Positions 3,388 to 24,187 of a stretch of DNA of 24,339 nt are shown here, one piece after another. Origin of the DNA: a virus; IMG/VR virus record IMGVR_UViG_3300025508_000149, positions 1-24,339 of that record; one strand, 5' to 3'. The notes beneath the pieces are model-generated. The model searched no databases. It was not told the DNA's origin and was given only the letters and a program-made list of their open reading frames with translations. A program made the translations under genes and the position numbers. The stretch's first letter is position 1, and each line of letters starts with the position of its first letter.

Positions 3388-5624
3388 TGGCTGGTACAGA
3401 AGGACACGGTGCAGGTGGCACCTCTGGTAACGCTGGTAACTCTGGTGATGGCGGCTCAGGTGGCGGCGGTGGCTTCTTTGGTGGTGGGTCTAGTTCCTCA
3501 TCAAATGACGGCTCAAACGCGGGTTTTAGTAAGGGTGTAGGTAATCCCGGTGCTGTGGCCCCTGTGGGTCGAGGAGGCGTCTCCGTTAATGGTTATGACG
3601 GCAATCGTGGCGTTGTATCGGGCAACGGTATGGATGGTAATGGCTTTGGCCGTACCAATGAGGTGGGCGTATCTACAAACAATCTTGGCGCTCCACAGTA
3701 TGGATATTCTGAAGTAGGGGCCAATTCCGGTCCCGGCTTTAAAGACGATAACAATGATGGTTACTCAGACTTCCATGATGAGAACCCCTCTTCTTCAATC
3801 TCCCCACAACAGTATGCAATACAGAAAGCTGCCAGCCGTGTTCTTGGTATGCTTACGGGCGGTATCATTGGTCTTGCTGGAAGCACAGTAACGGATCTAC
3901 AGGCCCGTGGTATTGTCCCCAGCTTGGGTAATGGAGATTTCAAAGGCCCTCGCTCAGGTGATGATACTGTAGAGCGGGAAGGCCAGAGTGAGATCGACAA
4001 GAAGGTAAATGATGTTCTGAATGACGGTACTCTTTCAGACACTGAAAAAGATGTTCAGGTTACCGAAATTCTCGTAGATGCCCTACAACAGGCTGAAGGT
4101 CAGGAAGCTGCACAGGTTAGTGCTAGCGTAGTGACCCCTATGGTTGATCAGGTGTATGGAAATAGTACCCAGACGCCGGAAGGCATTATGTCAGATCCCT
4201 TCTCTTTGATGGGTATTCCTATGTCTGCCCGTGTACGTCAGATGGACACCAACACAGGTCTCATCCAGAACCCTGTGGTAAATAATCCCTCACTGTACAA
4301 CTACACGGCAGATCAGGCTTCTACGTCCCTAGCTGCGCAGCAGACTGCTAAGAATGCCCAAGGGTATGAGGCGGCTTTAACAGCAGGCCGTATCGCAACG
4401 AATGGACAGGCTAACGCAGTAACAGGTACTGTATCCAATGACGCTATCATCACAGCAGAACAGCTTGATGCTGCAGGTACAGCCACAGGCGTTAACAGTG
4501 ATGGTACTACCAACTACACCGGACAGGCCCTTAATAGATCTGCACAGCAGGGCTTCGGTCAGATCATTGATACAACAACGGTGTCTGGTAAGCTTCTTGC
4601 ACAGGAACTAGGTGAAGGAAACTTCACAGATTCCAAGGCTACAATGCAAGGCCAGTTGGATATTCTGTCTAAGCAGTTTGTAGACCCAACAACCGGAGAG
4701 CCTAAGATCCCTACATGGGCTGCAGGTGTTGCCCGTAATGTATCCCGCATTGCTGCATTCAAAGGTATGACGGGTACAGCCGCTACAGCCGCCATGTCTC
4801 AGGCATTGATGGAAGCAAGTCTTCCTGTAGCACAGCAGGATGCACAGTTCTTCCAAACACTCACAGTAACGAACCTTAATAACCGACAGCAGATGGCAGT
4901 TACAAAGGCTAACGTACTTGCTAAGATGGATATGGCTAACCTTGATAGCCGTATGTCAGCAGCAGTTAACAACTCTAAAGCTTTCTTGCAGATGGATCTA
5001 CAGAACCTGTCCAATGAACAGCAGACAGAGTTGGTTAACACACAGGCGCGTGTACAGTCTATTTTGGAAGATGCTAAATCCACAAACGCTGCACGGCTAT
5101 TCACAGCAGACGCACAGAATGATTTCGCTAAGTTCTACGATCAGTTGGACCAGCAGATCAACATGTTTAACTCTGAACAGCAGAACTCTATGAATCGTTT
5201 CAATGTTGGTGAAACGAATTCTGCCAGCCAATTCAATGCCCAGCTAGAGAACCAGCGTGAACAGTTCTATCAGGAAATGCAGTATAACGTAGATCTGTCT
5301 AATGCCCGCTGGCGTCAGACTGTTGAGGTTACTGAGAACGCACAGCGTTTCCAAGCTGCCCAGATGGATATCATGAACGTAGTAAATATGAGTAAGGAAT
5401 CTCTGAACCGTATGTGGGACAGAGAAGACGCTATTCTTGATTACACATGGAAAACATCTGACAATGCTCTCACCCGTGATATTCAGCGGTACGCTGTTGA
5501 TAAGGAATACGAGCTGGGTAACCGTAAGGCTGATGATTCCGCTGACGCTGCTAAAGGTGCAGGCATCTATGAACTGGTCAAGATAGGCACAGACCTAGCC
5601 AAGAGCTTTGATATCTTTGACTAA
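3387..5624 (+). CDS. Large Gly-rich/coiled-coil structural protein, likely internal virion or tail component
   Basis: A 745-residue protein I cannot name by homology. Residues 1-120 are extremely Gly/Ser/Asn-rich. Residues 119-134 (FKDDNNDGYSDFHDENP) match the Asp-rich calcium-binding pattern of thrombospondin-type-3 or dockerin-like loops. A hydrophobic patch follows at 152-168. The middle is Ala/Thr/Gln-rich, and about 490-715 is a long Gln/Asn-rich predicted helical region with FxxQ and LxxQ spacing. It lies between the lysis cassette and the tail-lysozyme protein, within the late genes, and starts by TAATG coupling to the o-spanin. A virion protein (internal core, ejection or tail-associated) is likely; a head-stabilising protein is an alternative. 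No catalytic motif is visible. Confidence 0.6.
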   Translation: MAGTEGHGAGGTSGNAGNSGDGGSGGGGGFFGGGSSSSSNDGSNAGFSKGVGNPGAVAPVGRGGVSVNGYDGNRGVVSGNGMDGNGFGRTNEVGVSTNNLGAPQYGYSEVGANSGPGFKDDNNDGYSDFHDENPSSSISPQQYAIQKAASRVLGMLTGGIIGLAGSTVTDLQARGIVPSLGNGDFKGPRSGDDTVEREGQSEIDKKVNDVLNDGTLSDTEKDVQVTEILVDALQQAEGQEAAQVSASVVTPMVDQVYGNSTQTPEGIMSDPFSLMGIPMSARVRQMDTNTGLIQNPVVNNPSLYNYTADQASTSLAAQQTAKNAQGYEAALTAGRIATNGQANAVTGTVSNDAIITAEQLDAAGTATGVNSDGTTNYTGQALNRSAQQGFGQIIDTTTVSGKLLAQELGEGNFTDSKATMQGQLDILSKQFVDPTTGEPKIPTWAAGVARNVSRIAAFKGMTGTAATAAMSQALMEASLPVAQQDAQFFQTLTVTNLNNRQQMAVTKANVLAKMDMANLDSRMSAAVNNSKAFLQMDLQNLSNEQQTELVNTQARVQSILEDAKSTNAARLFTADAQNDFAKFYDQLDQQINMFNSEQQNSMNRFNVGETNSASQFNAQLENQREQFYQEMQYNVDLSNARWRQTVEVTENAQRFQAAQMDIMNVVNMSKESLNRMWDREDAILDYTWKTSDNALTRDIQRYAVDKEYELGNRKADDSADAAKGAGIYELVKIGTDLAKSFDIFD

Positions 5625-12304: not shown

Positions 12305-12646
12305 TTAGTCGTCTTCAGAAGTAAAGCCCTCTGCTGGCGTACCAAGCTGTTTATACACTTCCTGTTCTTGTAGTTGCATTTCGTCCAGCATGAGTTGGTA
12401 GGTGTCTTGCAGAGTGTTACACATTGCCTGCTTAGGGAGAGAGCCAAAACCCGACATAACAGCTAGATTAGAAGCCATACGTGCCTGCTTGATTGCATTC
12501 CTCAGAAGCCCCTGTGCCTGTTCCATTGTACGTATAGACTCACAAGCAGCCATTAGGGCCATAGAGTTAGAAACTTCCTGTGCGGTATCACCGGGATTGT
12601 CCAAAATGGCATTATCTACGGCATCATAAAGATCTTTTAAATTCAC
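12305..12646 (-). CDS. Small helical hypothetical protein (113 aa), last gene of the minus arm
   Basis: A 113-residue protein, starting at GTG 12646 with AAAAGGA upstream on the minus strand. The sequence is almost wholly helical: LKDLYDAVDNAIL, then an Ala/Met-rich centre (MALMAACESIRTMEQAQGLL), then a Gln-rich helix (MLDEMQLQEQEVYKQL) and an acidic end (FTSEDD). There is no membrane segment, metal site or family I recognise. It follows PhoH after a 106-base gap containing a hairpin and a possible promoter, so it may be transcribed separately. The codon use looks like its neighbours. The function is unknown. Confidence 0.65.
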   Translation of the reverse strand: MNLKDLYDAVDNAILDNPGDTAQEVSNSMALMAACESIRTMEQAQGLLRNAIKQARMASNLAVMSGFGSLPKQAMCNTLQDTYQLMLDEMQLQEQEVYKQLGTPAEGFTSEDD

Positions 12647-12698
12647 TCTAGGAAGTCCTTTTAATTGTTCAATTTAAGGGGCGGGATGGCAGGGTTAC

Positions 12699-12734
12699 TT
12701 ACTACCTGTAGTTAGTGTCATAGTCAACAGTCAA
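12699..12734 (-). promoter_or_regulatory. Possible promoter with doubled TTGACT box ahead of the 113-aa gene
   Basis: On the minus strand TTGACT occurs twice, seven bases apart (12729-12734 and 12722-12727). The second is 17 bases from TAGTAA (12699-12704), a weak -10 match. The -35 boxes are good and the -10 is poor, so this is a candidate only. It would give a leader of about 45 bases before GTG 12646. Confidence 0.3.
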
Positions 12735-12754
12735 AATTACCAAAAAGGTAATTT
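12734..12754 (-). terminator. AT-rich hairpin at the end of the PhoH gene
   Basis: AAATTACC and GGTAATTT form a perfect eight-base stem around a five-base loop (all T on the minus strand), overlapping the PhoH stop codon by two bases. Only a few T follow on the minus strand, so termination would be weak. It may instead stabilise the PhoH mRNA. Confidence 0.4.
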
Positions 12755-13472
12755 ATGCATCCTCCATAAACGCCCGTACCCACAAGGCGCATAGGTCTGA
12801 TCTCACGATATCATCAACAGTGAATTCAATGATAGGAAAAGGCAGCATTTGCTGCTTTGTCATATGGATTACTTTAGACAACCCGCAGTCATGTGGAATA
12901 TCGGTCTGAAATATATCACCGTCGATAACAGTCTGTGTGTCTTTACCAATACGGGTAAGGAACATCTTCATTTCTTCCACACTGGCATTCTGTGCCTCAT
13001 CCAAGATTACAAAGGCGTTCTCAAATGACTTACCGCGCATTGTCTCGAAAGGCTCAAACACAAGCTCTTCGCACTTCATCATGGCTTCAACTTTCTGGGG
13101 GCCTAGATGCTTCTTCAATACGTCCACTGCTGGTGCTGCCCAAGGTGCTACCTTCTCTTCTAGCGTACCTTTATGATAACCCAAGCCCTTACCTCCTGCA
13201 GCGACATTGGGTCGGGACATAATGATCTTCTCGACATATCCCTGCACGTAGAGGTTAGCAGCATGTGTCATTGCCATGTAGGTCTTACCCGTACCTGCAG
13301 ACCCTACAGTGATAATCATATCCTCTCCCTTTAGACATCGCAGGTATTCAGCCTGTGTAGCATTAAGTGCCACTAAGGGAATGGATTTGGGTGTCTTATA
13401 TTCTGGCGTTATATCCTCCTGTACCTTCTGCTTACGTGTTCTACGTGCGGGACGGGGCTTGATCTTCGCCAT
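12753..13472 (-). CDS. phoH: PhoH-family P-loop ATPase
   Basis: A 239-residue PhoH-type NTPase. Residues 1-30 are a basic tail (MAKIKPRPARRTRKQK). The Walker A motif GSAGTGKT is at 57-64 and the Walker B-like VILDEAQN at 155-162. Between them lies the PhoH signature region SRPNVAAGGKGLGYHKGTLEEK, with downstream IDGDIFQTD as sensor-like segment. PhoH proteins bind and hydrolyse ATP; in bacteria they are linked to phosphate starvation and RNA metabolism, and phages, especially marine ones, often carry them. The exact role in infection is not settled. It is preceded by an extended -10 promoter and stands after the small-gene cluster. The length is typical of the single-domain family. ATG 13472 is the only reasonable start. 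Confidence 0.95.
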   Translation of the reverse strand: MAKIKPRPARRTRKQKVQEDITPEYKTPKSIPLVALNATQAEYLRCLKGEDMIITVGSAGTGKTYMAMTHAANLYVQGYVEKIIMSRPNVAAGGKGLGYHKGTLEEKVAPWAAPAVDVLKKHLGPQKVEAMMKCEELVFEPFETMRGKSFENAFVILDEAQNASVEEMKMFLTRIGKDTQTVIDGDIFQTDIPHDCGLSKVIHMTKQQMLPFPIIEFTVDDIVRSDLCALWVRAFMEDA

Positions 13473-13503
13473 ATAACTATCCTGATGTTTGTGTTACGGT
13501 GTA

Positions 13504-13516
13504 GTTATATTATAAC
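13504..13516 (-). promoter_or_regulatory. Extended -10 promoter of PhoH
   Basis: On the minus strand TGTTATAAT reads as an extended -10 element (TATAAT at 13509-13514), 37 bases ahead of the PhoH ATG. No convincing -35 lies 16-18 bases upstream, which is normal for extended -10 promoters. The box is part of a perfect inverted repeat, GTTATA-T-TATAAC. A second inverted repeat, ACCCT/AGGGT, lies just upstream and could be an operator. Confidence 0.55.
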
Positions 13517-13558
13517 ACAGGACCCTTAGTTAGGGTATCCCTAGATGTATTTCATCAG

Positions 13559-13834
13559 TCATTCTCCCTTTTGTGTTGGCGGGTTCGTTTTTTTGTCGCG
13601 CGCAATTTCAACTTGGAACTGAATTTCGGCGGCGTCTATAGCTGCGCGGAGTGTTCGCACATATGCCCCGCAAGTGTGTTCATAATCACCACCAGACTTT
13701 GCCGAAGATCGGAGAAGCTGCACTGCGCTCAATTTCTTGCGCAGGTCGCCTATCAGCCCGTTTACGTTGCTTTCGTAAATGTCACGGCAAAGGCGCGGAC
13801 CAGTATTGTTAAATTCTTCTTGAGTAAAAGCCAT
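13559..13834 (-). CDS. Small hypothetical protein (91 aa) of the small-gene cluster
   Basis: The frame is open back to 13927, but the start is placed at ATG 13834 because AAGGA lies eight bases upstream and the same leader precedes the ATG of the neighbouring gene. The 91-residue product begins MAFTQEEFNNTGPRLC, has two Cys (in RLCRD and EHTCG), a basic/helical centre and a charged C-terminus (ARDKKTNPPTQKGE). No domain is recognised. It is the last gene before the PhoH promoter. By eye its base and codon choice (more GCG, GGC and CGG) differs from the large phage genes, which may mean separate acquisition. Confidence 0.62.
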   Translation of the reverse strand: MAFTQEEFNNTGPRLCRDIYESNVNGLIGDLRKKLSAVQLLRSSAKSGGDYEHTCGAYVRTLRAAIDAAEIQFQVEIARDKKTNPPTQKGE

Positions 13835-13858
13835 TTTCGGCATCCTTGTGTTGTGGGC
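13834..13858 (-). repeat. Leader repeat, copy 1 (24 of 25 bases identical to 14145-14169)
   Basis: Immediately upstream of the ATG of the 91-aa gene lies a 25-base sequence containing its ribosome binding site. It recurs with one change upstream of the 81-aa gene. The shared element begins with GCCCACAACA on the minus strand and runs into the start codon. Confidence 0.85.
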
Positions 13859-13897
13859 TAAACGCCCGTTTAAGCCGCCCCTGCCGTTATGGCGGGG
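13855..13897 (-). other. Two tandem GC-rich hairpins between small genes
   Basis: CCCC-T-GCC pairs with GGC-GGGG (13878-13897, one bulged base), and GGGC pairs with GCCC around TAAAC (13855-13867). They fill the 64-base gap between the 81-aa and 91-aa genes. No T-run follows on either strand, so they do not look like terminators. They may affect mRNA processing or translation of the downstream gene. Confidence 0.5.
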
Positions 13898-13898
13898 T

Positions 13899-14144
13899 TT
13901 AGGTGCGGTTGAATTTAGAGGTGCCATTTGCGTCGAGGGTCATGTCGTATTCCGGCGCTACCTCACCTTCTGGTATTGCATCAAAATCGGGATGCTCACC
14001 GTAGTATGTGATCCGGTCCAGATCAAACCGCGCTTCTGTGTGCCAGACAACAAGACCAGAAAGGGCTTTCCCCATTACCTCAAGCGGCGTCCTGTATAGT
14101 ATTTCTCTGTCAATATGGAGGGCACCACGTTTTCTGCTGTTCAT
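13899..14144 (-). CDS. Small hypothetical protein (81 aa) of the small-gene cluster
   Basis: An 81-residue protein beginning MNSRKRGALHIDREILY. ATG 14144 is supported by AAGGA nine bases upstream within the repeated leader. The N-terminus is basic, the middle resembles a small beta-rich domain (GLVVWHTEARFDLDRITYY), and the C-terminus is acidic then polar. There are no Cys, membrane segments or catalytic motifs. It lies between a two-helix membrane protein and the 91-aa gene in a run of co-oriented tiny genes. Early host-takeover or accessory proteins often look like this, but nothing in the sequence shows a function. Confidence 0.6.
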   Translation of the reverse strand: MNSRKRGALHIDREILYRTPLEVMGKALSGLVVWHTEARFDLDRITYYGEHPDFDAIPEGEVAPEYDMTLDANGTSKFNRT

Positions 14145-14326
14145 TTTTCGGCATCCTTATGTTGTGGGCGCGTTAGTCGGTATCCCTTCACTTCAATGAG
14201 GGTCATAATCCACGCAGAGCCAAAAGATGCACCCGCGCTGACGCATAGGAGTGGATGCCAATCAAACACGCCAGCGAATAGAATGTTAATCGCTGTAAGC
14301 GCCCACATTTTCAGTACATACTCCAT
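14141..14326 (-). CDS. Small two-helix membrane protein (61 aa)
   Basis: A 61-residue protein with two hydrophobic stretches, about 7-20 (MWALTAINILFAGVF) and 24-43 (HPLLCVSAGASFGSAWIMTLI), separated by a short DW turn, and a basic, polar C-terminus (KGYRLTRPQHKDAEK). This predicts a helical hairpin in the inner membrane with both ends cytoplasmic by the positive-inside rule. The start is coupled to the preceding gene by a TAATG overlap, with AAAGAGA upstream. It could be a holin-like, superinfection-exclusion or host-interaction protein, but it lies far from the lysis genes. The function is unknown. Confidence 0.6.
   Translation of the reverse strand: MEYVLKMWALTAINILFAGVFDWHPLLCVSAGASFGSAWIMTLIEVKGYRLTRPQHKDAEK
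14145..14169 (-). repeat. Leader repeat, copy 2
   Basis: The 25-base partner of 13834-13858, with a single difference. It carries the ribosome binding site of the 81-aa gene and overlaps the C-terminal codons of the membrane-protein gene. Confidence 0.85.
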
Positions 14327-14643
14327 TAATCAGTCTCTTTTTTCTCTAAATTACGCAGCCACGCAGCGCACTCTGGACACGGTTCAGGAAATGAAGATGT
14401 TAAGACCCTGCACTGAGGACAGCGATCTGCAACTATCCTGCCGGAGTCGGATATCTCGAATTCTGTTACGGAACCAACGGATTCAGTTGAGAAACTAAGA
14501 CCCAGCCACCGCTCACACTTTTCCCAAGCAGCCTCTGTGGCAAAGCTGTTGTGTGCGCGTATGGCTGTGCGTAACTTATCAAAGTCCCGCAGCATCGTTT
14601 GCACCTTGGCTCCCTGCACAAATAATTTCTGGTCAGCCATCAT
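14326..14643 (-). CDS. Small zinc-ribbon-like hypothetical protein (105 aa)
   Basis: A 105-residue protein. Residues 1-55 are helical (KVQTMLRDFDKLRTAIRAH). A Cys-rich module follows: CPQC near 75-78 and CPEC near 89-92, two CxxC knuckles about 11 residues apart, as in zinc ribbons. The end is charged (LEKKETD). The start is the ATG at 14643 overlapping the preceding stop (ATGA), with AAAGGAG upstream; the adjacent second ATG is equally possible. Zinc ribbons bind nucleic acid or protein, so a regulatory or adaptor role is possible. No family is recognised. Confidence 0.62.
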   Translation of the reverse strand: MMADQKLFVQGAKVQTMLRDFDKLRTAIRAHNSFATEAAWEKCERWLGLSFSTESVGSVTEFEISDSGRIVADRCPQCRVLTSSFPEPCPECAAWLRNLEKKETD

Positions 14644-14903
14644 TCACTCTCCTTTTGATAACACTTTTCTCCACACTCGGGGCATTGAAAGTAAGGGGGT
14701 AGTTTGTTTCCTTCTGTATCGTAACCTTTTACGTAGATCTCTTTACCAAACCTACCTCTATCTGGGCCTGCCCCGTACATATAAGCTGTATCTAGTGCCT
14801 TCTGCCAATCGCCTTCATACTCTTTTAAGAAGTATTCATAAATCCTCTCCCCGTTTAAATCAAAGTCACAATGCACACACTTTCCGTGATCGTCAGTAGC
14901 CAT
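14640..14903 (-). CDS. Small zinc-ribbon-like hypothetical protein (87 aa)
   Basis: An 87-residue protein with CVHC at residues 9-12 and CPECGEKC near 74-81, so two CxxC pairs could bind one zinc with an intervening helical or loop segment (IYEYFLKEYEGDWQKALDTA). The start overlaps the preceding stop (TGATG) and has AAGGA nine bases upstream. It resembles other tiny treble-clef or ribbon proteins of phages, which are often host- or polymerase-directed, but there is no specific match. It lies directly next to another CxxC protein, so the two may work as a pair or derive from similar modules. Confidence 0.62.
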   Translation of the reverse strand: MATDDHGKCVHCDFDLNGERIYEYFLKEYEGDWQKALDTAYMYGAGPDRGRFGKEIYVKGYDTEGNKLPPYFQCPECGEKCYQKESE

Positions 14904-15103
14904 CAGTCAGTATCCTTCACTTCAAAAAACCAGATTGCGGCGGCTTTTGCAGTCTTGTGCTGTTCGGGGCATAGCTTTTTGCCTGTTTCTTTGTCATGTA
15001 CGGCCCAAAGCCCAGATGTGTACTGCTCTGCCATAGCCACTAAGTGGCCAGTGCCATCAACGATACGCTTACTGTACCGGAGGCCTGTGCTTTCAATCAC
15101 CAT
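14903..15103 (-). CDS. Small hypothetical protein (66 aa), first gene of the small-gene cluster
   Basis: A 66-residue protein reading like a small antiparallel beta-sheet domain: alternating polar and hydrophobic segments (RIVDGTGHLVAMAEQY, SGLWAVHDKETGKKLC) followed by a helix (TAKAAAIWFFEVKD). There is one Cys and no membrane segment. ATG 15103 has AAGGGG eight bases upstream and lies just after the terminator-like hairpin that follows the RNR gene, so expression depends on readthrough or on a promoter inside the RNR 3' end. The function is unknown. Confidence 0.62.
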   Translation of the reverse strand: MVIESTGLRYSKRIVDGTGHLVAMAEQYTSGLWAVHDKETGKKLCPEQHKTAKAAAIWFFEVKDTD

Positions 15104-15127
15104 TAGTCAGTCCCCTTTTTCAGGTTC

Positions 15128-15171
15128 TAAAAACAAATCTGGGGAAACTATAACTCGCATAGCTCCCCCAG
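15128..15171 (-). terminator. Intrinsic terminator downstream of RNR
   Basis: On the minus strand CTGGGGGAGCTAT pairs with ATAGTTTCCCCAG: 13 consecutive pairs, two of them G-T, around a seven-base loop, followed by ATTTGTTTTT. This is a good intrinsic terminator 27 bases past the RNR stop. Confidence 0.78.
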
Positions 15172-15198
15172 TAAAGACCTTAAATGATACCTTTTATG

Positions 15199-17349
15199 CT
15201 ACCTGATCGGACACGCCCCACTTGCACAATCATCCATATCCAACTCCTCTAGAGTATTACCGCTATCCAGATTGATAGGAGACAGCCGTGACACATACTC
15301 TTTGTACACCTCCTCAGTAACTACCTCCTGTGGTAGGTATGCGTAGCCTAGATCCTTAGCCGTCTTCGTTGGATCATTACGATAGATCCAGCTTACCCCT
15401 ACATAGTGATCCCAATTCTCTTCAAGCCACTGAATAATAGCGGGGATCTCTGTGGGGTCGTAGCTGATTGTTACAGAACAGTTATGGTCTACATAGTTGT
15501 CCATCATAAGCTTGTACCGCTCAAGCTGATCTACAGCGGTCTCAAGGTTAACATGCTTACCATCTACAATATCAAACTTAACATCTTCATATGCCACAGG
15601 GAACGTGGCTAGCATGCTGTCAGGCTCAAAAGGCTTCTCAACTACTTTATACCCTGCAGCAGCCAAAATAGGTATCAGAGGATCATTCTTGCTGAAGGTG
15701 ACATTGTTGAAGAGGTATCGTCCCAGAGGACGGTGTACGCCTTCTGTCGTGTCCATGATCTTAGACAAAGTACCTGAAGGCTTAACGGTAGTCACCGCCT
15801 TTGCGCGTGGAAGGCCTAGCTCATCCGCCATGCTATGCGCCCCAGCAGTCGCAGCCTTACGGGCCATCTGTAAGAAGGCCCTCTGGTTAGCTGTATCACA
15901 GAGGTGGTCCAGCATTTTGATAATACCAGTAGCCCCAACCCCACAGAGACGCAGGAACTCATTCAGTTCATGCCATGTACGCTGAAGGATACCATCATCC
16001 AAATTAACGCAGGTCTGGCGATAGTTTGCGCGGGCAATGATACGGATAATGTTGATCTGTTCTTCTGGCGACATATGCAGAAGCTTACCCCAATCCACCT
16101 CTACCAGATTACAGAAGTTGTGATTCCCCAACAGGATCTCAAAGCAGGGATTACCGCCCTTGAACCAGCTAGCTCTCTTCTGTGCGGCCTTGGCGTTAAT
16201 AAACCCCGGCTCTGAACCACCAGCTTCCACCATACGATCAAAGATATACCGCAACTCCCATGTAGAGGGTGTGTTGTAGAATAGGATGCTGTTGTTGGAC
16301 TGCTGTCGGTGTCCACGATCATAGTAGCCTGCGGCATTAGCCCGCTGTAGCAGGATATAATTAATAGGACCACGGCCCGACATAACCTCCTCTTGGGTTA
16401 GGAAGTCTTGGAGTGTCTTTTCTTGGCCCGTCTCTTCGTGGAACAGATTGAAGAAGTTCTTCTTTGCTACGATGAAATCGTCCGCCTCTTTGTCCGTAAC
16501 TGGCATCATGGCAATCTCAGCAGAGCGGCGAGAAGACAGAGTTGTACCGAGGTGGTTCATAATATCTACGATATCAATACGGGTAAGGAGTTTGCCCGCC
16601 CGCATGTTCATTACACGGCAGATATGCACAAATGCGGCACTGATAGATTCATCACCAGAGGAGATCCATCCATACCCTTTCAAGCGGATACCTGCAGCCC
16701 GGACCTCCGAGAAGTCAATGATGATACGATCTATTTTGGTTTTCATAGCCATAAGCTTGCCGATAGCCTTAGACCATGCTTCTGCACTATCTCCAACCGT
16801 CATATGGTACACAGATACAGTAGTACCTTCCTCTACAAGCTTGTAGAACGCCTCTTGGTTATTTGCGTGGCCTTTAGGGTCTCCCTTAACCTTAGCTGAC
16901 CGGATGATACGGATATCCGTCTTCTTGGCAAAGCCATTCAGTGTCCCTACCGTAGGTTCAAAGCCCACACCGCAGCCCTGTAGCAAAAGCCAAAAAGCAT
17001 CAACAACATCATGTACTGTCTCAACCTGCAAGAAACTACAATTGAATTGTGAGGCTTCCCGAAGCTTTGCTACATCTGTACCACCCAACCACAATGTACG
17101 CCCGGATACAGTAGCGATACGCTTGTACATCAGATCTCGTAGAGTATCCAACTCAGCGGTTTCTTTCTCGGTAAGGTCTACATCACCCTTGGCCCGTTGC
17201 CACAACCATTTCTGGTGGTCAATCACACGGTCTACCGTCTGTACCCATGTCTCAAACTCTGTGCCTTCTTCATTAAGAGGTCTATTGTAAGTACGGCGGG
17301 TGATTACGTTTGCGCGTGTGGAGAATGTAGGCATATTGTTAAGAGACAT
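15199..17349 (-). CDS. nrdJ: Class II (adenosylcobalamin-dependent) ribonucleoside triphosphate reductase
   Basis: A 716-residue monomeric class II ribonucleotide reductase, converting ribonucleotides to deoxyribonucleotides for phage DNA synthesis using a B12-derived radical and no oxygen. Residues match the Lactobacillus leichmannii enzyme closely: Cys104 in FNCSFL, the thiyl-radical Cys402 and Glu404 in NPCFEI, and Cys413 in NFCNL, with the same 2- and 11-residue spacings as C408/E410/C419. The C-terminal CASGACPIR (Cys708, Cys713) is the redox-shuttle tail. The length is close to the usual 740. ATG 17349 has GAGGAA upstream. The gene is bracketed by intrinsic terminators, so its expression is probably set by readthrough. 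The host must supply or import cobalamin. It appears intact. Confidence 0.96.
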   Translation of the reverse strand: MSLNNMPTFSTRANVITRRTYNRPLNEEGTEFETWVQTVDRVIDHQKWLWQRAKGDVDLTEKETAELDTLRDLMYKRIATVSGRTLWLGGTDVAKLREASQFNCSFLQVETVHDVVDAFWLLLQGCGVGFEPTVGTLNGFAKKTDIRIIRSAKVKGDPKGHANNQEAFYKLVEEGTTVSVYHMTVGDSAEAWSKAIGKLMAMKTKIDRIIIDFSEVRAAGIRLKGYGWISSGDESISAAFVHICRVMNMRAGKLLTRIDIVDIMNHLGTTLSSRRSAEIAMMPVTDKEADDFIVAKKNFFNLFHEETGQEKTLQDFLTQEEVMSGRGPINYILLQRANAAGYYDRGHRQQSNNSILFYNTPSTWELRYIFDRMVEAGGSEPGFINAKAAQKRASWFKGGNPCFEILLGNHNFCNLVEVDWGKLLHMSPEEQINIIRIIARANYRQTCVNLDDGILQRTWHELNEFLRLCGVGATGIIKMLDHLCDTANQRAFLQMARKAATAGAHSMADELGLPRAKAVTTVKPSGTLSKIMDTTEGVHRPLGRYLFNNVTFSKNDPLIPILAAAGYKVVEKPFEPDSMLATFPVAYEDVKFDIVDGKHVNLETAVDQLERYKLMMDNYVDHNCSVTISYDPTEIPAIIQWLEENWDHYVGVSWIYRNDPTKTAKDLGYAYLPQEVVTEEVYKEYVSRLSPINLDSGNTLEELDMDDCASGACPIR

Positions 17350-21488: not shown

Positions 21489-23657
21489 CTATAAAACTAC
21501 ATCTACCATCTTTGGTACTTCTATAGCTTCCATAGTCATCCAGCTACTACCGCCCTCAATCTCAATATCTAGAGGCAACTCCGGTTCGTAACCCCACCGA
21601 CGATACATATCGTCACCCATGAAATGCATCGCCCAAGTAAGTGCTTCAGCCACCTCTGAGATCTCTTCCGGGTGACAATCAACTACAATGGAGTCGTGTA
21701 CTGTCAGGATGATCTTGGAACGCAGCTTACGGGCCTTAAACGTCTTTAATGCTCGTACACAGGCCAGAGGTACAATATCTCCTGTAGCAAAGCCCTGTAC
21801 GGGATAGTTAACGATTTCTGTTGCTCGGCTTACACGGCCATTAGGATATCTCTTTACGTTGGGGAAGTGATACTCCCTGCCGCTAGGTACACGGACAATT
21901 CCATTCTTAAGGACACCGCTAAACAGTGTCTTATGCCATTCCGCCATACCAGAGTAGATCACGAAGAATTCCCTGAAGTACTTCTGGATATGTTCTGGCT
22001 CATTCGCGCCTTGTCCCCCATAAAGAGGTGCAAATGTATACGCCTTAGCTCCCTGACGAAGGTCTTTATCCACATCTGCTACATCACACTCATTAATGAT
22101 GGATGCAGTCTGCTTATGAACATCCTTACCCTTCATAATATCCTGAATAATCTGTATATCTTTGGATAGCTCTCCTGCGACACGGAACTCCAAGCCACTG
22201 AAGTCTGCCTCTATGATCAGACCATCTTCAAAGCGGCTTGTGATAGCCTTTCGTACAGGGAATTTACCCCCCTTTGGAAGGTTCTGGAAGTTAGGCTTGC
22301 TACACGACAAACGGCCCGTAGATGTTACACACTGATTAAAGTTAGGGTGTAGAAGCCCATCTGGCCGCGTCCATGTCTGGATACCGTTCACGAAGGTGGC
22401 GATGTAACTGGATACAGCATTCAACCTGCGCATCTTGTTCAGGAACTGGATGGCATCCCAATTCTGTTTCTTTTCCGCTTGGGAAAGCAGGCGAGGGATA
22501 ACGTCTTTACCTGTAGAAAAGCCATGGAAAGTTGCATCGCTAGGACGCTCTGGGGATAGCTTCAATCCTGCCACGACACCCGTGGATTTATAGACAACAC
22601 CTGCACCATCACAGTGCGTACAGTTAGGTGGGCGTTTATGCGGCTCCCCTGATTTAGTCAGCTTGAACTGCTTACCTCTACCATTGCATTCAAAGCAATG
22701 TTGCACCGTTGTGCGGTGGCATACGGTGGATATTGCACGAACGGCAGCATTAAACTCTGTACGGCGCATACGGGGCGGATACTTCTTCTTCCCGTTGGGC
22801 ATAGTACCGATGTTAAACATAGCGTGGTGGAGCTTCTTATCGGTGATTTCCCGGCTGTACATAACCTTGGACAGATCAATACCGCTGTTTAGGTTTATTG
22901 GGGTATCGCCCATGACACTGACAACGATATCCTCAAGATCCTTCTTAAGCTGTGCTTGCTCTGCCTTGAATTCTAGCTCCACCTCTTTCAGGGCATCCAA
23001 ATCTATGTTTGCGCCATTACCTTCAATCTCCACAAGGAACAGCAGCATTTCATTCATAAGATCAAAAGTGGGCCAGAGACCTTTATTATCTTCCTCTTTG
23101 AGGTCTTCTAACTGCGCCTCATAGATATCAGCACAGGACACAACATCTGCCTCTGCGTACTCTATGACAATCTCAAGCGGCATAGCTTCAAAGCCTGTAC
23201 CACCCTTGAACAGATCGTGTACCAGATCACCCTTCTTATGGGTTACCTTTCGACGTATTGCAGTCTTCTCTAGAGACAGTTCGACATTAGCCCCCCGCGC
23301 AAAGATGTACTCACCTATCATGGTACACCAGACACGCTCTGGCAGGTCAAAGCCCATTTCTGTGAGCCATGCCACATCGAATTTAGCGTGATGAGCTACA
23401 AGAACATTACTGCGATCTAACGCCTGCTGTAGGGCCTCTCTGCCCATAGGGACAGACTGCTCATTGTGGTTCCAAATGAGGTTTGTGACGGGTGTACGTA
23501 CACCATCCTTAATCTCAAGGAAGTGACCAGACACACAGAAGTTGTCTTCGTGGTAGGGGCTGTTGTCTGTGTCCTCAGTATCTTTGCCTGTAAGCTTCAC
23601 TGCGCTTACAGACGTTTCTAAGTCGAGTACTATTGTTCGTGTGGTTCCATCAATCAT
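21489..23657 (-). CDS. polA: Family A DNA polymerase with 3'-5' exonuclease and an inserted DnaJ-like zinc module
   Basis: A 722-residue replicative polymerase. The exonuclease domain has Asp12/Glu14 (VLDLET), Asp94 (HHAKFD) and Asp171 (YAEAD). The polymerase domain has motif A DFSGLEFR (485-492), the O-helix RQGAKAYTFAPLYGG (Arg534, Lys538, Phe542, Tyr546) and motif C VHDS (653-656). There is no 5'-3' exonuclease domain, as in T7-type enzymes. Between the thumb motif INLNSGIDLSKVMYS (254-268) and STGKDVIPRLL (381-391) lies an insertion of about 100 residues with two CxxCxGxG-type units (Cys321/324 and Cys346/349), like half of a DnaJ zinc domain. ATG 23657 is preferred because it overlaps the upstream stop as TAATG; 14 more N-terminal codons are open but precede the exonuclease fold. 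All catalytic residues are present. Confidence 0.95.
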   Translation of the reverse strand: MIDGTTRTIVLDLETSVSAVKLTGKDTEDTDNSPYHEDNFCVSGHFLEIKDGVRTPVTNLIWNHNEQSVPMGREALQQALDRSNVLVAHHAKFDVAWLTEMGFDLPERVWCTMIGEYIFARGANVELSLEKTAIRRKVTHKKGDLVHDLFKGGTGFEAMPLEIVIEYAEADVVSCADIYEAQLEDLKEEDNKGLWPTFDLMNEMLLFLVEIEGNGANIDLDALKEVELEFKAEQAQLKKDLEDIVVSVMGDTPINLNSGIDLSKVMYSREITDKKLHHAMFNIGTMPNGKKKYPPRMRRTEFNAAVRAISTVCHRTTVQHCFECNGRGKQFKLTKSGEPHKRPPNCTHCDGAGVVYKSTGVVAGLKLSPERPSDATFHGFSTGKDVIPRLLSQAEKKQNWDAIQFLNKMRRLNAVSSYIATFVNGIQTWTRPDGLLHPNFNQCVTSTGRLSCSKPNFQNLPKGGKFPVRKAITSRFEDGLIIEADFSGLEFRVAGELSKDIQIIQDIMKGKDVHKQTASIINECDVADVDKDLRQGAKAYTFAPLYGGQGANEPEHIQKYFREFFVIYSGMAEWHKTLFSGVLKNGIVRVPSGREYHFPNVKRYPNGRVSRATEIVNYPVQGFATGDIVPLACVRALKTFKARKLRSKIILTVHDSIVVDCHPEEISEVAEALTWAMHFMGDDMYRRWGYEPELPLDIEIEGGSSWMTMEAIEVPKMVDVVL

Positions 23658-24187
23658 TATGCAGCTTCCCCCATGGTGGCATGTGTCAGATATCGCCACA
23701 GGCTTGCGGGACTAGATAGTTTTGTGTGTGACAGGAGAAGAGTATTACCCGTTTTGCCCAGATAAGTGAGTTCTGCTGTATCTAGATACCGCTTTTGTGT
23801 CACCCATCCCCGGATAACCATCGTCTGTTCATCCTCTCCGGGGACCACCAGAACACCAATGTCGGCCTTAAATGCCGCCTTACTCTTGAATAAGAGATTA
23901 CCTTCGCGGCTGAAGGCGGCTTTTACATCAATACCGAGTGATCCCGAAAACATATCAGAACCTGCATCAATACCAAACATGAGGGGGTTGTGGTCGAGGT
24001 GATATGCCTTCGCTACTGCGATCTCCGCTTTGATACCTAAAAGATCAATCTCACTATCTTCTCTAACATCATCCCGTTTCTGATTAGCCACCCCTGCAGC
24101 CCGTGCCAGTTGCCACCGCATTGCAGCACCTTGATTGGCCGCTGCTAACTCTGCCCGTGAAAGGACAATACGTACATCATTCGACAT
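23657..24187 (-). CDS. PD-(D/E)XK-like endonuclease candidate
   Basis: A 176-residue protein from ATG 24187. GIKAEIAVAKAY (Glu55), an acidic stretch with Asp74 and Asp78, then GIDVKAAF (Asp87, Lys89) and a beta-rich C-terminal half (IGVLVVPGEDEQTMVIRGWV) match the layout of small PD-(D/E)XK nucleases of the restriction-enzyme-like fold. It could help degrade host DNA or process replication intermediates. The start overlaps the helicase stop by 11 bases and has no clear Shine-Dalgarno, suggesting coupling; a TTG at 24208 would add seven residues and is less likely. The stop overlaps the PolA start. The specificity is unknown. Confidence 0.65.
   Translation of the reverse strand: MSNDVRIVLSRAELAAANQGAAMRWQLARAAGVANQKRDDVREDSEIDLLGIKAEIAVAKAYHLDHNPLMFGIDAGSDMFSGSLGIDVKAAFSREGNLLFKSKAAFKADIGVLVVPGEDEQTMVIRGWVTQKRYLDTAELTYLGKTGNTLLLSHTKLSSPASLWRYLTHATMGEAA

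Follow-up and report, generated by a model that had tools for sequence, protein, structure and literature searches.

The small-gene array and its setting

The DNA considered here (‘the window’, the whole analysed stretch of 24,339 bases) is a virus record in itself. Going by its sequence it is that of an HMO-2011-like phage, since its DNA polymerase is nearest to those of the Roseobacter phages CRP-235, CRP-3, CRP-212 and CRP-738 (50–55% identity), with HMO-2011 being more distant. The polymerase is of family A (21489–23699) and has within it a weak match to the DnaJ central domain, insertion of which in the DNA polymerase is typical of HMO-2011-type phages; the host is probably a roseobacter. 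Recombination enzymes encoded in the window include a Cas4-type exonuclease and a RusA-like resolvase.

On the minus strand an array of six small genes, for proteins of 66, 87, 105, 61, 81 and 91 aa, is bounded by a ribonucleotide reductase gene (17349–15199) and phoH (13472–12753); its features are collected in Table 1. Directly behind the reductase gene, at 15139–15171 on the same strand, is a strong terminator-like hairpin with a T-rich tail, and the array may therefore form a separate transcription unit. The four CRP phages named above, all HMO-2011-like isolates, have 0–2 small genes after the reductase gene, so that the array has the look of an accessory insertion; in CRP-2 reductase and phoH are separated by four genes, with one for glutaredoxin among them.

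Table 1. Genes, joints and hairpins of the array, with coordinates in the window
Feature	Coordinates	Strand	Remarks
66-aa gene	14903..15103	-	no family match
87-aa gene	14640..14903	-	relative in L044/L015
105-aa gene, CxxC pairs	14326..14643	-	relatives in L011, L055
61-aa gene	14141..14326	-	relatives in L006, L007, L024
81-aa gene	13899..14144	-	relative not found
91-aa gene	13559..13834	-	relative in L004/L005, 71% over residues 13-81
Joint A AAGGGGACTGACTAATG, start of 66-aa gene	15101..15117	-	2 mismatches
Joint A AAGGATACTGACTGATG, end of 66-aa gene/start of 87-aa gene	14901..14917	-	1 mismatch
Joint A AAGGAGAGTGAATGATG, end of 87-aa gene/start of 105-aa gene	14638..14654	-	2 mismatches
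Joint A AAAGAGACTGATTAATG, KETD-stop of 105-aa gene/start of 61-aa gene	14324..14340	-	3 mismatches
Orphan joint A AGGGAGAATGACTGATG, array end, followed only by a 4-codon ORF	13553..13569	-	2 mismatches
Joint B copy 1, leader and ribosome binding site of 91-aa gene	13834..13858	-	intergenic
Joint B copy 2, final codons of 61-aa gene and ribosome binding site of 81-aa gene	14145..14169	-	
Pair of short GC-rich hairpins, separating 81-aa gene from joint B copy 1	13862..13900	-	

Ten array proteins gave nothing above the curated cut-offs of Pfam and only weak matches in PHROGs (best E 0.0034). Among isolate phages tblastn revealed no relatives of the 61-, 105-, 91-, 81- and 87-aa proteins, or of the 63-aa protein of L006 considered below, nor was there a match to the array DNA. 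A search of IMG/VR with PhoH and the 81-aa protein yielded no relatives, and the 61-aa protein was not found in 394 genomes of the genome family of L067, a search that had no positive control. The contigs compared in what follows (L numbers denote fetched loci) are metagenomic fragments; L006 and L011 are one contig, as are L007 and L056, and both of these contigs have relatives of the 61-aa protein.

Two kinds of repeated joint

An earlier note on this DNA drew attention to a near-identical pair of 25-base leaders ahead of two unrelated genes. The pair, here termed joint B, is real (GCCCACAACACAAGGATGCCGAAAA and GCCCACAACATAAGGATGCCGAAAA, identical at 24 of 25 positions), and the 81- and 91-aa proteins encoded downstream show no similarity to each other. 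That each copy carries the ribosome binding site and spacer of the following start needs some amendment: the AAGG of the next start is in both copies, but the register is shifted by one base, base 13834 being the A of the 91-aa gene's ATG while copy 2 stops one base short of the ATG of the 81-aa gene. Further, and missed by that first reading, copy 2 does not stand alone as a leader: the upstream 61-aa gene has its coding end there (...RPQHKDAEK and stop), with a stop that overlaps the start of the 81-aa gene as ATGA. In the frame of the 61-aa gene the sole difference between the copies, CAT/CAC, would change no amino acid. Only copy 1 is preceded by hairpins, whose fold is no better than that of shuffles (z -1.27) and pieces of which reappear in L007 at 5193–5227 and 5420–5445.

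The window has no other copy of the 25 bases at up to 3 mismatches, and the full element was not found outside the window. The prospect of relatives with no further copies is nevertheless not borne out, the left 17 bases of the leader being present in two related phages (L011 and L056). In IMG/VR this left part is in six contigs, two of which are these relatives; matches to it in L076–L079 were judged coincidental as the flanking joint context is missing, and so was one to the central 18 bases in L003, where the leader-like string is antisense in an unrelated gene. A longer stretch of 35 bases (13837–13871) is found again in L056/L007 preceding a different gene, and the homology with L006/L007 breaks off within copy 2, at 14160. 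Occurrence just twice in the window would fit chance, or recent tandem duplication of one gene pair. However, 100 shuffles of the sequence yielded no such repeat, the downstream proteins are unrelated and the leader occurs again in L011 and L056, which makes such an origin scarcely credible; a chance repeat was rejected on the shuffles and the recurrence in relatives, and gene duplication on the unlikeness of the downstream proteins.

The commoner joint, A, is AAGGARACTGACTGATG. Its 17 bases comprise C-terminal codons for K-E-T-D, a stop, a Shine Dalgarno (SD) sequence (AAGGAG) and the next ATG. Part of it had been perceived earlier as an ACTGA(C/T)T-type sequence just before three starts; those at 15103, 14903 and 14326 are real, and a worn copy at 14643 and the orphan at 13553–13569 are now added. 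At up to 3 mismatches the window has five matches to joint A where 0.13 are expected, and all are within the array or at its end. L007 also has an orphan joint A (5387–5403), followed by 9 codons and then by a hairpin with a T-rich tail (to 5445). In every joint the SD is at a workable distance, and in most the stop overlaps the start (TGATG or ATGA). Stops are present in two frames of the joint, the 91-aa gene using the first and the 105-aa gene the second; the TGA outside the K-E-T-D frame ends both the 91-aa gene (...KGE) and a 59-aa gene of L044 (...KGD).

Might the K-E-T-D ending instead be a functional C-terminal peptide tag, with the DNA repeat resulting from selection at the protein level? 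The three mismatches of the joint at 14324–14340 are all silent in the 105-aa frame and the changes in certain other copies are conservative (KDTD, KESE), as a tag would have it. Yet the ending is METD at L006 4790 and GEAD at L007 4790, the 61-aa gene is without such an end in the window, L006 and L007, and the 91-aa gene, reading the other frame of the joint, ends in KGE. We consider a tag very improbable.

In IMG/VR joint A is present in 58 contigs, 8 of which have several copies, versus 20 contigs, and none with several copies, for a spacer-shuffled control; this threefold excess is rough, there being a single such control and many of the 58 contigs belonging to groups of related phages. 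Among 63 exact copies in IMG/VR loci, 56 stand before an ORF of at least 40 aa, and 33 close an upstream ORF of at least 40 aa (1 of 20 in the control). None of six stretches from isolate roseophages has the joint. Matches to the pattern in genome_contigs (10 contigs, of mixed phyla) are near chance level and were left out of the evidence.

Islands of homology in otherwise dissimilar phages

When the window was compared by BLAST with all fetched loci, it had only array genes and joints in common with the contigs that contain array genes. These genes occur singly, at 90–93% DNA identity and with different neighbours, in phage contigs that are otherwise dissimilar, and the homology of the single-gene islands ends at joints or a few bases off. 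The 87-aa gene is in a 260-bp island (90.4%) in L044/L015, which match each other at 99.98% identity along 4882 bases; the island starts exactly at the first base of the joint at 14901–14917 and is placed after a different reductase gene. Around the next joint, 14638–14654, the L044 homology ends at 14658 and that with L011 begins at 14657. The latter island, that of the 105-aa gene, covers 335 bp at 91.9% in L011 (91.9–92.5% in L011/L055) and ranges from 3 bases ahead of one joint through the end of the next, while that of the 61-aa gene in L011/L056 is of 181–191 bp at 92–93%. For the 91-aa gene the match with L004/L005 begins at residue 13, and its first 12 residues would therefore be from elsewhere; the L004 homology ends 36 bases inside the gene, off the joint. 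L055 is N4-like, a virion RNA polymerase gene being present in L011, to which it is nearly identical; among its own products are a Sak4-like annealing protein, an SSB and a Holliday junction resolvase.

Synonymous and non-synonymous codon differences between island pairs number 14 and 7 for the 105-aa gene and 14 and 9 for the 87-aa gene, counts which suggest that these two proteins are maintained; the 61-aa gene (4 and 5 versus L006, 2 and 5 versus L007) gives no such sign.

Side observations in the same loci are that L004, the phage with the relative of the 91-aa gene, possesses a repeated start element of its own, ATAAAAGGAC (upstream stop plus SD), in four exact copies before small genes (4209–4218, 4406–4415, 4625–4634 and 5207–5216; 0.01 expected), and that 27 bases of L044 (3917–3943), consisting of joint A and the first codons of the 87-aa gene, are identical in L017, L048 and L051, where they are on a different gene (MATVYSDVRTD...).

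Phage mosaicism is often at gene boundaries, owing to selection, and ends may therefore lie near joints without the joints having guided the crossovers. With eight chosen ends of homology blocks, six are within 5 bases of a joint, a zone making up 12.5% of the region (binomial P 8e-5, a value that ignores the general tendency of mosaicism to gene edges and that comes from ends which are not fully independent), and seven are within 10 bases. Omitted from this count were two short pieces of L056, of 35 and 26 bases, the duplicates L015, L005 and L055, the 61-aa block as it is in L056 (5' end at 14350 rather than 14340) and an L024/L027/L050 block, 14250–14332, with one end in a joint and one inside a gene.

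Gain, loss and replacement of genes, and altered C-termini

Up to the joint that follows the 105-aa gene, L011 and L055 agree over 4227 bp at 99.7% identity. After that joint L011 has 65-, 61- and 70-aa genes and then a 63-aa gene, whereas in L055 the 63-aa gene (97.4%) follows directly, with a perfect joint A before it that L011 lacks at that place; the L055 junction is only 228 bases from the contig end, where misassembly is possible. The window has no 65-aa gene, and its 105-aa gene adjoins the 61-aa gene directly. What then follows the 61-aa gene also varies. Behind the leader AGCCCACAACACAAGGA there is a 70-aa gene in L006 and a 56-aa gene in L007, while the window has a shortened form of that leader before the 81-aa gene and a second copy before the 91-aa gene. 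The leader of L006 and L007 is a hybrid, its left half being B and its right half A. Relatives thus present both the same leader before different genes and the same genes with changed neighbours.

Genes also differ in their ends. The 61-aa gene closes with RPQHKDAEK in the window and RPEHTANEP in L006/L007, and its homologue in L024 (52% over residues 1–44) continues into joint A, where it closes with LIKKETD; for the 87-aa gene the counterparts are QKESE in the window and DTNKGV in L044. From these altered ends, crossovers would therefore have been inside coding ends beside joints. For joint B copy 2 a specific event can be proposed. The 61-aa gene of L007 ends ...GCGCCCAGAACAC...TGA, and GCCCACAACAC of the leader is 48 bases further on (47 in L006). 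Deletion between the 11-base near-repeats GCCCAGAACAC and GCCCACAACAC in an L007-like arrangement would remove the gene's own end and stop to give GCGCCCACAACAC, which equals the window save for one C/T (CAC/CAT), and would convert RPEHTANEP to RPQHKDAEK. Judging from this fit, copy 2 probably arose by such recombination between near-repeats.

Illegitimate recombination together with selection for intact genes is the standard model of phage mosaicism, and under it each joint could simply have travelled with the gene behind it as that gene's own ribosome binding site, the repeats then reflecting common ancestry of leaders rather than a site of recombination. The 87-aa gene of L044, which has joint A at its 5' end and none at its 3' end, is in accord with this. 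Less readily accommodated are the left half of B before different genes, the B-left/A-right hybrids of L006/L007, the 63-aa gene with joint A in L055 and without it in L011, and the altered C-termini, which bespeak exchange inside the end of the upstream gene. On balance, we find it rather unlikely that the joints merely accompanied their genes.

Recombination, translation or both

The interpretation we favour, at a probability of roughly two in three, is that the 25-base copies are one type (B), and the commoner AAGGARACTGACTGATG another (A), of joints in an accessory small-gene array, between which genes have been inserted, deleted and replaced via recombination at short matches, within and between phage groups. 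The joints themselves would be the short homology used, and the route would probably be single-strand annealing or similar recombination by phage exonuclease and annealing proteins. The fixed register of stop, SD and start would keep any arriving gene translated. The joints now in the window are worn (1–3 mismatches) and should therefore be poor substrates for recombination.

Gene swapping via homologous patches was one of two readings offered at the outset, and the shared leader before different genes and the ending of homology near joints support it well. The other, a shared translational element, may hold as well: a role in initiation or coupling is to be expected because every joint has an SD and most have the stop-start overlap, but nothing indicates a dedicated protein or sRNA site. 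In its stronger form this second reading holds that the joints are translational control elements whose strong SD and stop-start overlap were selected for co-translation, perhaps with a phage or host factor, recombination being incidental. Besides the well placed SDs, there is in its favour a likeness to the Start-Associated Sequences at start codons that, in excerpts of PMC3203893, PMC7302621 and PMC12699233, are thought to act in expression. Against it, bases outside the SD are common to unrelated genes (CCCACAACAC; ACTGAC), DNA islands end at joints, neighbours and C-termini vary with the joints, other genes of the window are without joint B, and the leader RNA folds no better than its shuffles, for which reason leader RNA structure was also rejected as an explanation in itself. 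Control by translation with recombination incidental is a serious possibility, to which we would give somewhat less than even odds. The two are not exclusive. Recombination is supported as the history of the array, the make-up of the joints (SD, stop-start coupling) makes a translational role likely, which is compatible with that history, and the persistence of the joints may be owed to translation, to recombination, or to both.

A bolder version would have the joints selected for reuse as cassette joints. The array would then be akin to that of an integron, but recombinase-light, with 17–25 bases providing both short homology for insertion by annealing and guaranteed translation. Unrelated environmental phages would share the standard and trade single small genes, with the orphan joint awaiting the next one. 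We hold this to be doubtful.

Does clean exchange of single genes at gene edges reflect illegitimate recombination with selection, or homology-guided exchange at linkers? The question is old, and finding the same joint with different flanking genes in both near-identical and dissimilar phages makes it testable with a defined 17-base sequence. What has been found suggests that several unrelated environmental phages trade single genes at standard joints, and mobile small accessory genes can be sought by scanning for joints.

Comparison with known systems

In the titles and abstract openings of a literature covered in part, no description of these joints in marine phages was found. In lambdoid phages there are linker or boundary sequences between modules, with short homologies proposed as points of exchange. 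Unlike those, one joint here recurs many times per array and across phage groups, and it also serves as coding end, stop, SD and start.

In T4-type phages PeSL units between small genes are reportedly (Arbiol in 2010, Comeau in 2014) thought to mediate modular shuffling. The accounts of these promoter/stem-loop cassettes drawn on here are passages citing them (PMC4503421). To that extent, the likeness is in short repeated units between small genes of variable regions, in hairpins beside some joints, and in flanking genes that differ between related phages (L011 and L055; L006, L007 and the window after the 61-aa gene). The difference is that the present joints are translational junctions, mostly without intergenic space. 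No PeSL-type early promoter was recognised at the joints, 12600–15400 having 5 promoter-like sites versus 4.2 expected when the sigma-70 type was searched for; with none located at joints, sigma-70 promoter control there was rejected.

PeSL units, which the joints resemble in effect, are one of the two closest parallels; the other, alike in placement, is that of the Start-Associated Sequences (SAS; mycobacteriophages of cluster K, Microbacterium phages of cluster EF), which excerpts of PMC3203893 and PMC7302621 describe as a 13-base element at the position of the ribosome binding site, a few bases ahead of many unrelated starts, mostly of non-structural genes, better conserved than the ribosome binding site and sometimes including the upstream stop. 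According to these excerpts about half of the sites have an extra upstream element (ESAS, paired 17-base inverted repeats), and the function of SAS is either called unknown or suggested to lie in expression (PMC3203893, PMC7302621, PMC12699233). As with SAS, an SD-containing element is repeated near several unrelated starts, the window having five copies of joint A and two of joint B. By eye, however, AAGGARACTGACTGATG and GCCCACAACAYAAGGATGCCG differ from the SAS consensus as the excerpts give it (GGGATAGGAGCCC or GGGAAAGGACCCC); the joints are of 17–25 bases including C-terminal codons of the upstream gene, are common to dissimilar phages and belong to phages of other hosts. They also come with comparative evidence of gain, loss and replacement of single genes between copies, a further difference from SAS as those excerpts present it, and a possible evolutionary role is thereby offered for the start-associated repeats of actinobacteriophages.
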